Positions 45,528-52,303 of a stretch of DNA of 64,000 nt are shown in pieces; the stretch's first letter is position 1; the number at the start of each line of letters is the position of its first letter. The stretch is from NCBI GenBank assembly GCA_015501595.1, contig JADNRX010000008.1, forward strand, positions 388,215 through 452,214, in the 5' to 3' direction. The stretch comes from Hymenopellis radicata. Its lineage: Eukaryota > Basidiomycota > Agaricomycetes > Agaricales > Physalacriaceae. The notes under the pieces are model-generated. The model was not told the origin of the DNA. It made no database searches and saw only the letters and a program-made list of their open reading frames with translations. The translations under genes were made by a program, and so were the position numbers.

Positions 45528-47999
45528 GCTTGGGCCAAGAGAATAGGCGGGATTGGGTCAGGAGGAGGGAGGGTAGGAGGGCGAGAGGGCGGCGGGGAGG
45601 ACAATCTTATTGATGTGGGGACAAGTGCCAGAGCATATATACACAGGAACGACCCTAACACGTGCTTATCTCCGCTTTACTTCTGCTTCCGCGGGACAGC
45701 CTTTTTGTTTAGTTGTTCAGATCCACTCAGTTACCTGACAATAGCTAACGTCCGGATCTGACTTGCCCGCGTCATCTCAAACTGTTCCTGTAGCCTAATC
45801 TCTCCTCATTTGACTGCTCCCAGCTGCTTCAGTACGTTAATGCGGCGCCTCAATGACCAACCACTTTGTAAAGCGCCATGCAGGTGACCGTGTTGCCTGC
45901 AGTGGCTATTACACTACCGTCGTCCAGGCGAGGGAGTATCCTCGGCACAGGCGGTAGTATGATTACCAGTCGGCAGATAATGCGGAGACTCCTCTTCATC
46001 TCAGCAGCGCCGATGGACGTTACTGTGCGCTCAATTGATTGTACGACAGCCGCAATCATGGAGCTGTCCTCCTGTATAACCATTAGCTGTGTGCTACATC
46101 TGCCCTTCATACTCGCCGTACCGCTCCTGGAAATTAATCTCGACTCGGACTCGGAACCAGATTCGGAATCACCTCATCCTAGCGTCAGCTACATCACTTT
46201 CCGGGATTCTCAACCCCTCCGCTGAAATTAACCGTTATCTCTATTAACGTACTGCTTTACCCACCACCGCGTTTCGATCCTACGATGCACCGCCTTCCAT
46301 CGCAGCCAGGGCGCCACCCACCACACTCAAACCGGCAATTGTAACCGCCTCCCCGCGTCTCTCACACCCCTTCGCTGCTGCGCCCGGACTGCTCCCTCCC
46401 ACGACTCCGATATCCACCGGGTACGCCACTAGTATACTTCACGTCAGCGCATTTCAAGTGAGAATACAAATCTTTTCTTGGAGGCCCCATCCCATAGCTT
46501 CCTTCGCGCGACGCCCTCGGTCTGGAATGTCAGACCGCCTCTCCATCGGCCCTTACCGTCCTCGCCATCACGTACTACGCTCCGACTCGAGGCGTTGAGA
46601 AGTCCGATATGGATGGACCCGGGGTCTGGGGATCTATGCGTCATACTTCAGCGTGTGCTAAGATGAAGGCGTCAACGTTGATGGTCATTAATCGTCGACC
46701 TGCACCTACCAAATCGTCGTCACAGGCACGATGACTGACGCCTTCAACTCTGTCTGACTTGCGATGAATAGCCTGAGGGGCATAGAGAGATGATTTGGTG
46801 ACTGAAGGCAGGTTCACACGGAGTTCGAGCCATCTCCCCACACTCCGAGTCTATACATTCGGTCGGAGGTTGGCGACAGGGCGACCTGGAGTAAATTTGA
46901 TCTTTCTTACTCTGAAGCCACTCATCAGCTCGTTCTTGAATGGATCAGGAGGTCAGTCTCAGTTCATTGTCAATTTCGCGGTTACTCACTGACGCCGACG
47001 GATGTGCATGCATACTTCCACAATTCGTTGACAGACAGCGATAGAAGAAGGTGCGAAACGGACATCGAGGAAAAGGTCTGGACACGGTGAGACTCTTCGA
47101 CGAGAATAATCCGGAAACCCACATTCCCCCGATATCTATATTCACAGAGTAGCCTTTGAACTCTGGTTTGAAGATTGACCCAAAGTAACGCGCACTTGAC
47201 CAACGCCACAAGCCGAATCTCGTGAGAGCCTTGAATGCTAAAATCATCCTTAACAGAGACCGTCTTTCCATATCCCGAAAAGTATTTCGAAGCTGTCGCC
47301 ACATGTGTACTCGGTGTGGACGGCGTAGCCAGGAAACTTGTACACGCTGAAGAGTTGCCTGGGTCTCAGCGACAAGCGCGCGAGCTAGAAACCCCCGTTC
47401 GCGTCATATTCCATGTCATCCACCTAGTCGCCGCAAAAAAGAGCATTCAACGCTCCGAGAATAGCATGGCGTTGAAAAACGCAGAGCCGGTTGATGAGGA
47501 AGCGAACTTGAGAAACTCGTCGCTGTTCGTTCCATCATCGGTAAGAACTGCGACATGATTCCGCGCATGGCGGGCTTTGTTCTCCAAATAATGTTGTGGC
47601 GAGCGTCCGACGGGTGCGTGCGATTGATGAAGAGAAGAAGGGTTTTGGATGGGTGGAGAACATAGGGCTCGTTGGACACGAAGAATGATAACCAATGTCA
47701 GCAACCAGATGATTCATGAACACAAAAGAAGGTATGTACCTAGCGGTTGATGCTTGTTTAACGTACTATACGCATCTGAGCAGAATTCGACGATGGTGAC
47801 GAATTTGCATCGGGCGACAATCTGCACCGGCGCATCTCTGGCCTCTGCTGCGTCGCTCTGCCTTCGGCGACGCGCTCCTGGCATTGAGTTTAGTGACTCA
47901 ACACACCGTTGCAGCGCCCCGCAACGTAACATGGACGCATAGACTGGTGTGAAACGACGTGGGCTTCGTCAAGAGTATGGTCAACATAGAACTACAACT
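45528..47999. other. Long region with fragmented frames, no identifiable gene
   Basis: About 2.5 kb. Several minus-strand pieces read smoothly (45850-46110 ending ALYKVVGH; 46945-47304 with RYFGSIFKPEFKGYSVNID; 47447-47704 with HVAVLTDDGTNSDEFLKFA), but I cannot chain them or name a family. A decayed gene is possible. The left part is the promoter of the Pro/His-rich gene. Confidence 0.35.
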
Positions 48000-49366
48000 C
48001 TAGTAATTTTTTAGTCGGGGGACGTCCGCGGCCCGTTGGGATTGAGAGTCTACTTTCGGGCGGCCACGCTTCGCCGCGTCAGTTGCTCTCTGGCGACTTT
48101 TGTAACGCCTATATACCGAGCCGTGAGTAAGGAATGTCCTATATGCAGTATCGCACGCACCGCCAGGTGAAGTATCTATAGAGTGTCTCGTAGCTTCTGT
48201 CGAGCTCGATGGATAGCTGCGCGAGAGCAGGGCGACGGGGGTACGGATCCTTTTCGAAATGAGCGTCGAGGACTTTTAGCGCGGCATCAGATAGCCGAGC
48301 TTTGGTCGGCGCAGATTCTGGCATCTCTGCTGGCCCCTCCGCCTCACGAACTTCCGCTCGCTTTCGCCTGTGATTATTCGGAAGGAGTTGTATGGCAAAG
48401 AGAGAACAGTCCGCACCGTCTATTGAACCAATTGTATAATAGGGAATACTCTGTATTCCATGTCTTGGCCAGAGTCTTCAGCACTTCTTTTGTTGGGTAT
48501 TCTTCCTTCAAGTAGAGCGCTTCCATAGCTTCTTTGCATTCTATAGACATTTTGTGATGCTCAAGTTGCAATTTGCGGCTCTTCTTCTGGTGGCGCCTAT
48601 TCCAAGCCATGAGTACTGTTCTCTCGGTAGCATGAAGACGCACCGCCTAACGAAATATCTGTAGACTGTCTCGTAAGTTTCGCCGAGCTCCACAGATAAC
48701 TGCAAAAGAGCCGGACGACGGGGGTGTTGGTCTTTTTTGAAGTAATCATCGAGGACCTCTCGCGAGGCATCAGATAGCCGGTATATGCGAGGCACAAGTC
48801 CTGGGTTGTGTTCTGCCACCTCCCCCTCCGGGCCCTCAAGAGTTCTCTCCTGCTTTCGCCTGTGACGATTAAAGAGAAGCTCCGTCGCGAACACAAAGTA
48901 TTACGCACCGCCGGACAAACCAATTGTACACCGCGGAATACTCTTCATTACAAGCCTCGGCTAAGGTCTCTAGTGCTTCGCGCTTTGGGTACCGTTCCTT
49001 CGAGTACACCGCTTCCAATTCTTCACGCAGTGGGTTTCGGGGCGGCGGGTTCGGGCGCCTACGGCTGCACGAGTATTTATTGTCAATTCTCCGTTCAAGT
49101 AATGGTGCGCACCGATTTCGAAACCAGAACCAAATCGTGTCATAAGACTCATCGAACTCGACTGCGAGCTGATTGACAGTATCAAAGTCCGGTCTCTGGT
49201 TCTGAACAAATAGTTCCTCCAGACGCGCCTTGCAAGCTTCATCAACTCGACTGCCCGGTGACCGATTGCCAATCTCAAGTGGACGATATTTCAAAGACGG
49301 ACCGCATGACGAAGTCGAGTGTAGCCGCTGGCCGCGGGTGGCGACGAGCTTGAACAAATTGAACAT
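48000..49366 (-). CDS. Protein with five tandem homeodomain-like repeats
   Basis: Six exons: 49113-49366, 48909-49064, 48644-48859, 48417-48596, 48161-48367 and 48000-48108. Five GT-AG introns of 47-52 nt; 373 residues, no frame break. Each repeat has homeodomain helix 1, an LAxE-type helix 2 and a WF-x-RRR recognition helix: HD1 ~41-92 (WFRNRRRR), HD2 ~95-143 (AVYNWFVRRRKQ), HD3 ~165-215 (TVYRYFVRRRHQ), HD4 ~226-276 (LLYNWFNRRRKR), HD5 ~294-344 (TLYRYFTWRRYK). HD2 resembles HD4 and HD3 resembles HD5, so a two-domain unit was duplicated. Every intron splits the equivalent Arg codon as CG|G or CG|C in the recognition helix. Only HD1 keeps the usual Asn51; HD2-4 have Arg and HD5 Trp. The C-terminus has an AT-hook-like KRGRPK. 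Probably a nuclear DNA-binding protein; no close family is known to me. Confidence 0.88.
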
Positions 49367-49436
49367 GATCGTTCACTTTGAACACGCCCACGTGGCTTTT
49401 GGAGTCGATTTCAGCTGAGGCATCTACGCGGATTAC

Positions 49437-49447
49437 GGTGGCGTAAC
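49437..49447 (+). repeat. Partial GGTGGCG motif
   Basis: Reads GGTGGCGTAAC, sharing only the first seven bases with the 15-base motif. It lies about 124 nt from the 3' end of tRNA-Val copy 3. Weak match. Confidence 0.3.
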
Positions 49448-49570
49448 GTTAAGCGCATTGTAATAGGTTGTATCGAGCCACTTGGCACTACTTAGTACTA
49501 AGTTCTGACTGGCGCGCTGCGCACCTGAATTTATTGAAAAACAAAACTTTGCGTAGAATCTTCTCATTTA

Positions 49571-49644
49571 TGAGTCGACCCAGGCTCGAACTGAGGACCT
49601 TCTGTGTGTTAGACAGATGCGATAACCAACTACGCCATCGACCC
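49571..49644 (-). tRNA. tRNA-Val (AAC), copy 3
   Basis: Identical in all 73 bases to copies 1 and 2, plus discriminator A, on the minus strand. Anticodon AAC. It lies between the homeodomain gene and acyl-CoA oxidase. Confidence 0.95.
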
Positions 49645-49746
49645 ATGCTGTCTAAGTTTTCTGTTTTTTGACTGCATTATTATTTCTATGATTATTTCGG
49701 CTACCGGTTCAGCTTATACCCGCAGTACCGGTTCCTTTTCCCCATC

Positions 49747-52303
49747 ATGGACAGATGCAAGTCAAGTGAGCATAGCATGAACTGCTTTCCCCCTTCCATC
49801 ATGCAGACGGCTCTGGACATGGCGAATGCCCGTAAATGCACATCCATCGATGTCCAACGACACGCGACTTTCTGTGGGGTGTGTATATCTTTTGTAACCG
49901 CCGCTCTTTACTAACACGCTCAATAGGTGGCACCGAGGCTTGGCAGAAACGCGAAAAAGATACGCAGCATCTTGGAGCAAGATCCGGTCTTTGACAAGTC
50001 CCAGAGGTTTGCGACCAATACGCGTGATACGTTGTTGATTTATATGGCGATCCAGACACTTTCTAGATCGGACAGAGAGCTTCAAACGCGGATTACGTCT
50101 CATAAACCGCATCAATGAACTCGCAGAGTCCCTAGGCTGGACCCGGGATGAAGTGAATCTGGCCTTCACCATTCTTGACGATCCTCTTCCAGTTGGACTC
50201 CACGACACTGCTTTTGAACCTGTCTTCAACTCTCAAGGTTCTCCCTCCCTCCTTGAGAGATATTCGTCTCTCGCAGCTCACTACGGCATATTTGGATGTT
50301 ACCTCCAAACCGAATTGGGGCACGGGTCAAATGTCGCAGGCTTGGAGACGACAGCGACGTTCGTACCAGAAACTCAAGAATTTGAGATTCACTCTCCGAC
50401 GTTGACGAGCAGCAAGTGGTGGATTGGCGCGTTGGGTAGAATTGCCACGCACGGCGTCCTTCAGGCGAAGCTCATCCTGCCTGGTGGGACGGACGCAGGT
50501 CCGCATCTGTTCTTTATCCAACTGAGGGATATGGGTTAGTGTCACATATCCAACCGTGTTCCTCGCTTATGCGTGCTGCAGACAATCATCAGTTGCTTCC
50601 TGGTATCAGCGCAGGAGATATTGGTTCGTCCGCTCTCCGTCTCCAAAGCGTATATTCACCTTGTAGATACTAGGTCCTAAGGCCATGGCTGGGTACGCGT
50701 CTGTCGACAACGGGTACGCTCGATTCAACCATGTACGCATTCCAAAGGACAATATGCTATCAAAGTTTGCCGGTGTCACACCAGACGGCAAATACGTGAG
50801 GCCACCTCACGCCAAAATGAGTTATGGTGGCGTACGTTCCCTGTACTGTAGATTGATGCGCAGACACTCATTTCCCCCAGATGTTGTACATTCGAGCAGG
50901 GTAAGCTGGGTTAATGCTATCGGGTGCTATCGTACTGAAACGTTGCCAGGATGGTTACTACAGCCGGTTCAATAATAGCGAGAGGTATTTTGTTCAGCGT
51001 TATCACTTCTTCGGGCGCTAAACGACGTCAGCTATCACCATTGCTATTCGCTATACTACTGTTCGCCGGCAAGGCGATAAAGGTCCCGATGGACTAGAAC
51101 GACAAGTGCTCACATACCCTTCGACTTATTATCGGCTGCTTCCCATAATATCGCACGCATATGTTTTCATGTTGATAGGCCGTAACCTCGTTCGTCTGAT
51201 TACTTTTTACCCGCTGTGATAGGTCGCTGATGCACGATGTAGCGGAATGCATTTGCCGATTATTCTGAGCGTCTTGCCGAAGGGAATACATCCCTTCTTG
51301 GAGAAATGCATGCCATCCTGAGCGGACTCAAGTCATACGCTACTACAACTTGCGTGGCTGACATCGAGACCGCTCGCCGGTCGATGGGCGGCCACGGGTT
51401 CAGTGCATTCGCTGGCGTTGGCAAGTTGTACGCGGATAACGTCGCAAGTGTAACGTGAGTACTCCTCGTCGCTCTTTCAGTTCCAGTTATAAACGGTTAT
51501 GTAGATATGAAGGCGAGAACTACGTTCTCGACAAGCAAGTAGTGAGGGCTGTATTGAAGGCCCAGCAGCAGCAACCAACGGCTTCGCCGTCGTTCTCTGG
51601 ATTTCTCCGGCTTCAACAACCCCCTCTTCTCACGCATACTAGCTGGGAAAATCCAGAGACATTGATTCTTCTGCTGGAGTGGCGCGCTGCGGTCTTTGCC
51701 CGAAATATAGACGAAGAGGACGCAGGTGTCGCTCGTCGGCTTTCGATCGCAGTTACCGAAGCATTCATTGCTGTGCAAGTACGTGAGCTGCTGACCACCC
51801 GCACCGTGATGAAAAGCCTGTATCTTCTTGTGCGTTGCCGACTGCTTTCTTACGCATATTCTGACCTGCATCGCAGTATCTTCTATCAACGATCGAATCG
51901 TCACTCGGCGACTTCTTGGAGTTGGGCATCCTGCGGCCGCTACACGCGAAGGAGATCCGGAAGGCGCTGCGGAGGGTTACAGAAGTGGAAATACTACCGG
52001 AGGCTATCGGGCTGACGGATGCCTTTGGGTGGTCAGACTGGGAGTTGGACAGGTGCGGTCTACGCTTGTCTCTTGTGCCGTCCCTAACGAAAGGTTGCTA
52101 GTGCACTTGGGGTGCACGATGGACGGGTGTATGAGGCTCTTTGGGAGAGAACAAAGAGTGAGCCTTTAAATAATGGAGAGGACCATCTGTATAAGGTGCG
52201 TCCCAGTGTTATACGCATATGATACCTAGCCGTGCTCAACTTTATCTGGCAGGATTATATCAAACCCATATTAGCAAGAGGAAGAAGGCTGGTCAAATTG
52301 TGA
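49747..52303 (+). CDS. Acyl-CoA oxidase
   Basis: Peroxisomal flavoenzyme of fatty acid beta-oxidation: makes trans-2-enoyl-CoA and hydrogen peroxide. The exons give SILEQDPVFDKSQR, RTESFKRGLRLINRINELAE, DPLPVGLHDTAFEPVF, then the core GCYLQTELGHGSNVAGLETT, THGVLQAKLILPGG, DIGPKAMAGYASVDNGYARF, HVRIPKDNMLSKFAGVTPDG, and C-terminal YEGENYVLDKQVVRAVLKA and AFGWSDWELDR. The stop TGA is at 52301-52303 after RRLVKL. VKL is not the standard SKL-type peroxisomal signal. The start exon (MDRCKSSEHS..., 49747) is less certain. The junction near 49954-49958 needs one more A in an AAAAA run to keep frame. Roughly ten introns. Otherwise coherent. Confidence 0.88.

Follow-up and report, generated by a model that had tools for sequence, protein, structure and literature searches.

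Several homeodomains in one chain are a known arrangement in animals, with 12 in CEH-100 of Caenorhabditis elegans, and double-homeobox genes occur in Dictyostelium; in the excerpt of the survey from which these examples are taken, the other named multi-homeodomain proteins are all from animals, and fungi are described as poor in homeobox genes, usually with fewer than twelve (PMC4901127). The gene described here lies on the minus strand of a 64,000-nucleotide stretch (the window) of the genome of the mushroom Hymenopellis radicata, on contig C1184, and a partial allele is found on contig C162. It encodes five homeodomains in one short protein, which we call an array. A first-pass annotation held that homeodomain proteins normally carry one such domain, rarely two or more with long linkers. 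New are the occurrence of such an array family in fungi, its homeodomains mostly without Asn51, and a presequence-like protein start; the multi-homeodomain kind itself is already known from animals. We tentatively propose, rating it somewhat below an even chance, that Physalacriaceae arrays of three to six homeodomains, mostly without Asn51, are imported into mitochondria as a new class of proteins binding mitochondrial DNA (mtDNA) or RNA (mtRNA), functionally like HMG-box packaging proteins. Within the literature titles and abstract openings searched, from which subscription papers were mostly absent, no fungal multi-homeodomain or mitochondrial homeodomain protein is named.

Five Homeodomains in One Short Protein

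The spliced frame is open from an ATG at 49366 to a TAG ending at 48000 and encodes 373 residues. An in-frame stop lies three codons 5′ of the ATG, and the five introns (47–52 nucleotides) all have GT..AG borders. The deposited H. radicata protein P0001 (hypothetical protein BDZ89DRAFT_1126938; 371 residues) differs in its intron 1 acceptor, 6 nucleotides downstream, which makes exon 2 49058–48909. The array gene is nuclear and intact. A five-exon alternative of 389 residues, with intron 1 left in the message, was rejected on the ground that splicing occurs at this site in the other units; retention of intron 1 would keep the frame and is possible.

Scored alone, each of the five units passes the curated cut-off of the Pfam Homeodomain profile PF00046 (22.9 bits; unit scores in Table 1), as does the whole protein, which matches over five stretches (108.4 bits, E = 1.5e-31). 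The unit scores are far beyond chance. An AlphaFold model of the protein contains five three-helix units, of which units 3–5 match homeodomain structures, and a sequence search of the PDB gave weak matches, mostly to homeodomains (best E = 0.0055). Successive residues at position 48 are separated by 52, 72, 60, and 69 residues. Thus the six intact exons and 373 residues of the first-pass annotation, and its five consecutive homeodomain-like units placed nearly back to back, were confirmed, as was a KRGRPK motif in frame at the C terminus, which we take to be AT-hook-like.

A relative, P0002 of Mucidula mucida, is 64% identical to the window protein, has five homeodomains in the same order, and likewise carries GRP motifs near its C terminus. 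The extreme C termini diverge: the window frame ends in VPRLKNY, and the Mucidula tail GRGRPPTKQLLEL corresponds to GRGRPPTKKLLEL in another frame of the window DNA. Either the C-terminal frame differs between the two species or the assembly contains an indel.

The Array Family in Hymenopellis and Mucidula

A PF00046 search of the H. radicata genome yielded 40 matches, many of them in arrays. Besides the window gene there are three further array subfamilies with three to six homeodomains, referred to by the contigs C466, C674, and C467; proteins of these other subfamilies are 24–29% identical to the window protein. The C466 group comprises four genes on that contig (at 11–30 kb and 78–80 kb), with relatives or alleles on C972 and C908 and with the Mucidula relatives P0006 and P0007. 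P0004 and P0005 of this group have five homeodomains. Our own model of the 29 kb gene has six and runs to 467 residues; its first Met lies 5′ of the position at which its relatives begin with MLGVY. The deposited version, P0003 (384 residues), begins within the first homeodomain. The C674 gene has four homeodomains and an allele on C655. The C467 gene, with three, is deposited as P0008, to which our model is identical letter for letter, and its Mucidula relative is P0009.

Degraded copies of the C467 gene were also seen, two on C550 and one on C1368 (L039–L041); both C550 copies retain the presequence-like start, and the C1368 copy retains only its end. A different three-homeodomain protein is encoded at 41.0–42.2 kb of C726 and on C423 (L018, L017). 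It has WFQNKR and WFRNLR units with a degenerate unit between them, and is of ordinary type, outside the array family.

Three protein searches of limited reach, two of which scored the 8000 candidates sharing most words, found relatives in Mucidula mucida and, at E < 1e-3, in no species other than it and H. radicata; the sole other rows, in one search, were two animal Nkx proteins (E = 0.15 and 0.52). Since the window-protein search missed the C466 paralogues and the other searches scored 8000 candidates, distant arrays elsewhere would be missed.

Loss of Asn51 from Helix 3

Asn51 in helix 3 is a hallmark of homeodomains, and not a requirement of the Pfam profile. In what we take to be the usual position numbering (48, 51, 52, 53), the pattern W48-F49-x-N51-R-R ascribed to the units at first pass applies only in part: unit 1 keeps Asn51 (WFRNRR), but residue 51 is Arg in units 2–4 and Trp in unit 5, and residue 48 is Tyr in units 3 and 5. 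A census of helix 3 covered 43 units from nine proteins or models; P0001 and P0003, which duplicate the window and C466 models, were excluded. Lys occupies position 51 in 12 of these units and Arg in 11, and the Asn51 hallmark is present in 3 of the 43, against 1 of the 5 units in the window. At the other positions the census found Trp48 in 38, Phe49 in 34, Arg52 in 40, and Arg53 in 39. The helix-3 core and its basic residues are retained; the base-reading Asn51 is mostly lost.

An Exon Repeat and an Internal Duplication

All five window introns and all 14 introns of the P0003, P0004, and P0008 genes are in phase 2. The 14 interrupt an arginine codon immediately after the helix-3 core, and the window introns likewise interrupt the arginine codon at position 52 (partly read by eye); in the C674 model, by eye, four of five introns lie at the position-52 codon (one of these codons is Gln) and the fifth in a linker. 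Because nearly all introns fall at this one phase-2 site, an exon corresponds to roughly one homeodomain. Internal exons measure 207–216 nucleotides in the P0003, P0004, and P0008 genes, about one homeodomain each, and 150 or 156, 216, 180, and 207 nucleotides in the window gene.

The window gene also carries a larger repeat. Its block of homeodomains 2 and 3 aligns with the block of homeodomains 4 and 5 at 67% DNA identity over 373 columns, introns included (E = 4.7e-49), and the corresponding protein identities are 51% (units 2 and 4) and 65% (units 3 and 5). This likeness, extending through the introns, argues that the window array grew by duplication of two exons. Since the five units and their order are shared with P0002, that event probably predates the split between Hymenopellis and Mucidula. 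Duplication of symmetric phase-2 exons of about one homeodomain each would have built up the array, with duplication of the two-domain block as a further step in the window gene.

A Presequence-like N Terminus

The window protein begins MFNLFKLVATRGQRLHSTSS and its C162 allele MFNVFKLAATRGQRLYSTSS; the corresponding starts are MFNFCRHVTTRTLKLQRYLSSTSS for C467, MLGVYRRVIPVYPGLCCRLST as an example from the C466 group, and MQSSRCLPLLSLCLPGSRRYATLIP for C674. These were scored with a composition rule (no Asp or Glu in 25 residues, at least three Lys or Arg) and with a full rule that adds the MPP-like motif R.?[FYLH][SA][ST] within residues 9–30, a rule of our own whose motif was picked after the sequences had been seen. 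Counting alleles and degraded copies, 15 H. radicata starts were scored: 14 satisfy the composition rule and 12 the full rule, with members of all four subfamilies among them. In Mucidula the rule holds for P0006, P0007, and P0009, the last from its fifth residue, an internal Met.

As background, first-ATG open reading frames (ORFs) of at least 40 residues were taken from the window and eleven other loci; these are random ORFs, not real protein starts. The composition rule was satisfied by 87 of 611 and the full rule by 4 of 610, the window gene itself being excluded (3 to 4 if His is dropped from the motif). Among overlapping internal 30-mers of five family members the figures were 17 of 1327 and 0 of 1327. 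The single positive control is H. radicata citrate synthase, which has ASARFSTTAS upstream of its domain; six loci for citrate synthase and Cpn60/TCP1 were inspected in their upstream frames, and a start-like stretch was recognised in citrate synthase only.

Selection on the Array Genes

Ratios of non-synonymous to synonymous change (dN/dS) were computed by the Nei–Gojobori method from small counts of changes. Between the window and C162, exon 1 gives 1.01 for the presequence (three non-synonymous changes, one synonymous) and 0.13 for the remainder (one and two). The C674/C655 pair gives 0.40, with 9 inserted bases. The P0004 gene on C466 gives 0.62 against C972 (presequence: two non-synonymous, one synonymous) and 0.98 against its paralogue at 78 kb of C466 (presequence: five and none). 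The array family is not uniformly constrained. The four related C466 genes, whose arrays hold five or six units and whose dN/dS reaches 0.98, are candidates for fast array evolution.

Possible Import into Mitochondria

The evidence for the homeodomain fold, the array, the repetition of exons, and the existence of a family is solid. For the array proteins, import, nucleic-acid binding, and packing or regulation are what we infer. Imported, low-specificity, multi-unit binding of nucleic acid in mitochondria seems the most likely mechanism, its chances of being right about even. The window protein, which is basic, would have an import signal at its N terminus, followed by the five homeodomains in tandem and a short basic tail. 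In most units Lys, Arg, or another residue has taken the place of the base-contacting Asn51, and the core of W/Y48, F/Y49, R52, and R53 is kept; given this exchange and the conserved core, several linked units would be likely to bind mainly through the nucleic-acid backbone, with low sequence specificity, rather than to recognise single sites. Since the N terminus fits a cleavable presequence and may act as one, the mitochondrial matrix would be the most likely place of work, with a role in packing or organising mtDNA or in regulating its expression. The earlier designation as a novel multi-homeodomain DNA-binding protein is upheld in its multi-homeodomain part by the profiles, the Mucidula relative, and the fold; the DNA binding is conjectural, and Asn51 has been lost from four of the five units.

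Several observations count against this proposal. The motif admits His so that RLHST of the window counts; without His, 11 of 15 starts qualify and the window haplotype fails. Two C466-type starts have RLSM in place of the motif, and in some C466-type genes the frame stays open 5′ of the MLG start, where our own first model of one such gene began. The subfamilies are related, so their presequence-like starts are not independent. The AlphaFold model has a predicted TM-score (pTM) of 0.29, and residues 1–39 are unstructured in it. Changes in the presequence are mostly non-synonymous (3:1, 2:1, 5:0), with no evident constraint on a signal, and the ratios of 0.62 and 0.98 suggest that some C466 members may be relaxed. 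As deposited, P0003 is without the presequence stretch and P0002 fails the rule. The P0002 peptide NDHVQFFQA is the counterpart of NDHVQFVQA in another frame of the window DNA around the ATG, so the deposited start may skip the MFN frame; the match suggests this and does not prove it.

A basic tail with an AT-hook-like motif is also what a nuclear protein might carry. The chief alternative is a nuclear multi-homeodomain transcription or chromatin factor, whose presequence would be a mere resemblance and whose tail and arginine-rich helix 3 would do their work in the nucleus. We consider it possible, though less probable than the mitochondrial mechanism. Homeodomain proteins are nuclear as a rule, and this alternative gains from the two GRP motifs of the Mucidula protein beside the KRGRPK tail, from the two deposited proteins that have no presequence, from the largely non-synonymous presequence changes, and from the C726 protein of the same genome, which has WFQNKR and no presequence-like start. 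It accounts poorly for presequence-like starts that recur across four subfamilies as little as 24–29% identical to the window protein, and again in three Mucidula proteins, or for the absence of Asn51 from 40 of 43 units.

Unlikely is a fast-evolving family confined to this lineage and with no settled role on DNA, its homeodomains serving as protein–protein modules or its genes decaying, for which the two species found in searches of limited reach, the C466-group ratios, the degraded copies on C550 and C1368, the C162 indels, and the shifted C-terminal frame speak, but against which stand the intact frame, splice sites, and five units of the window gene, the five units retained in Mucidula, and the ratio of 0.13 (from three changes) in the homeodomain part of exon 1. 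The indels, several single-base coding differences from the window haplotype, lie in positions 1–350 of C162 (L021), near the end of the contig, a place prone to assembly errors, so nothing is concluded from them on whether this allele is broken.

The family shows how homeodomain arrays can grow by repetition of exons. Should the presequence prove to be a true import signal, a fold classically used by nuclear regulators would have found its way into an organelle, and packing or regulation of mtDNA in these fungi would become a testable question.

The Locus

Features of the locus are collected in Table 1. A tRNA-Val gene (anticodon AAC) separates the array gene from its neighbour, and was the single Rfam match over window positions 46500–51000. 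That neighbour encodes an acyl-CoA oxidase, and its DNA is also present after the array gene on the other haplotype, C162.

Table 1. Features of the array gene and its surroundings (window positions)
Feature	Position	Strand	Remarks
Array gene, six exons	49366-49113, 49064-48909, 48859-48644, 48596-48417, 48367-48161, 48108-48000	minus	open spliced frame
Five introns	49112-49065 (or -49059), 48908-48860, 48643-48597, 48416-48368, 48160-48109	minus	all phase 2, arginine codon, homeodomain position 52
Presequence-like N terminus, residues 1-25	49292..49366	minus	first acidic residue at position 31; RLHST; C162 allele RLYST
Homeodomain 1 (up to intron)	49112..49255	minus	Pfam 31.0 bits; Asn51 kept (WFRNRR)
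Homeodomain 2 (up to intron)	48908..49045	minus	Pfam 37.2 bits; Arg51
Homeodomain 3 (up to intron)	48643..48792	minus	Pfam 24.7 bits; Arg51, Tyr48; best structural matches
Homeodomain 4 (up to intron)	48416..48562	minus	Pfam 26.2 bits; Arg51
Homeodomain 5 (up to intron)	48160..48309	minus	Pfam 27.7 bits; Trp51, Tyr48
Internal duplication, homeodomains 2-3 (49058-48644) and 4-5 (48596-48161), introns included	48161..49058	minus	DNA alignment
KRGRPK, AT-hook-like motif	48054..48071	minus	in frame; Mucidula KPGRPR at aligned place
GRGRPPTKKLLEL, other frame than window protein	47992..48033	minus	Mucidula protein has GRGRPPTKQLLEL in frame
tRNA-Val (AAC)	49570-49645	minus
Acyl-CoA oxidase gene (PF14749)	50039-50536 and onwards	plus

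Comparison with Known Systems

Every window unit shares with the Homeodomain family (PF00046) the profile match, the three-helix fold, and the W48-F49 and R52-R53 core, and the array differs in the absence of Asn51 from most units and in packing five units into one short protein. Mating-type HD1/HD2 proteins carry a single homeodomain, against the five found here. The C726/C423 protein also comes from H. radicata and has several homeodomains, but it keeps Asn51 in units 1 and 3, has its introns elsewhere (by eye), and has no presequence-like start.

The animal ZHX/HOMEZ, ZFHX, and CEH-100 proteins, as presented in the excerpted survey, likewise have several homeodomains per chain (PMC4901127). 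They belong to another kingdom, and the ZHX and ZFHX proteins (ZF class) carry C2H2 zinc fingers, whereas no zinc-finger family is among the Pfam matches listed to E = 10 for the window protein, in a search where HMMER drops most matches above about 0.1. We know of no presequence in animal multi-homeodomain proteins. The Caenorhabditis double-homeodomain family HOCHOB (PF17943), whose full profile runs homeobox, cysteine loop, homeobox, is matched by P0004 with 35.6 bits, above the cut-off of 26.3, over about 40 of 120 profile positions, and by the window protein with 25.2 bits, below the cut-off, over positions 3–43 of 120.

The HMG-box fold of TFAM is unrelated to the homeodomain, and the likeness is one of function only. 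With mitochondrial HMG-box packaging proteins such as TFAM (PMC7312866), the arrays would have in common small DNA-binding units and non-specific binding to mtDNA.
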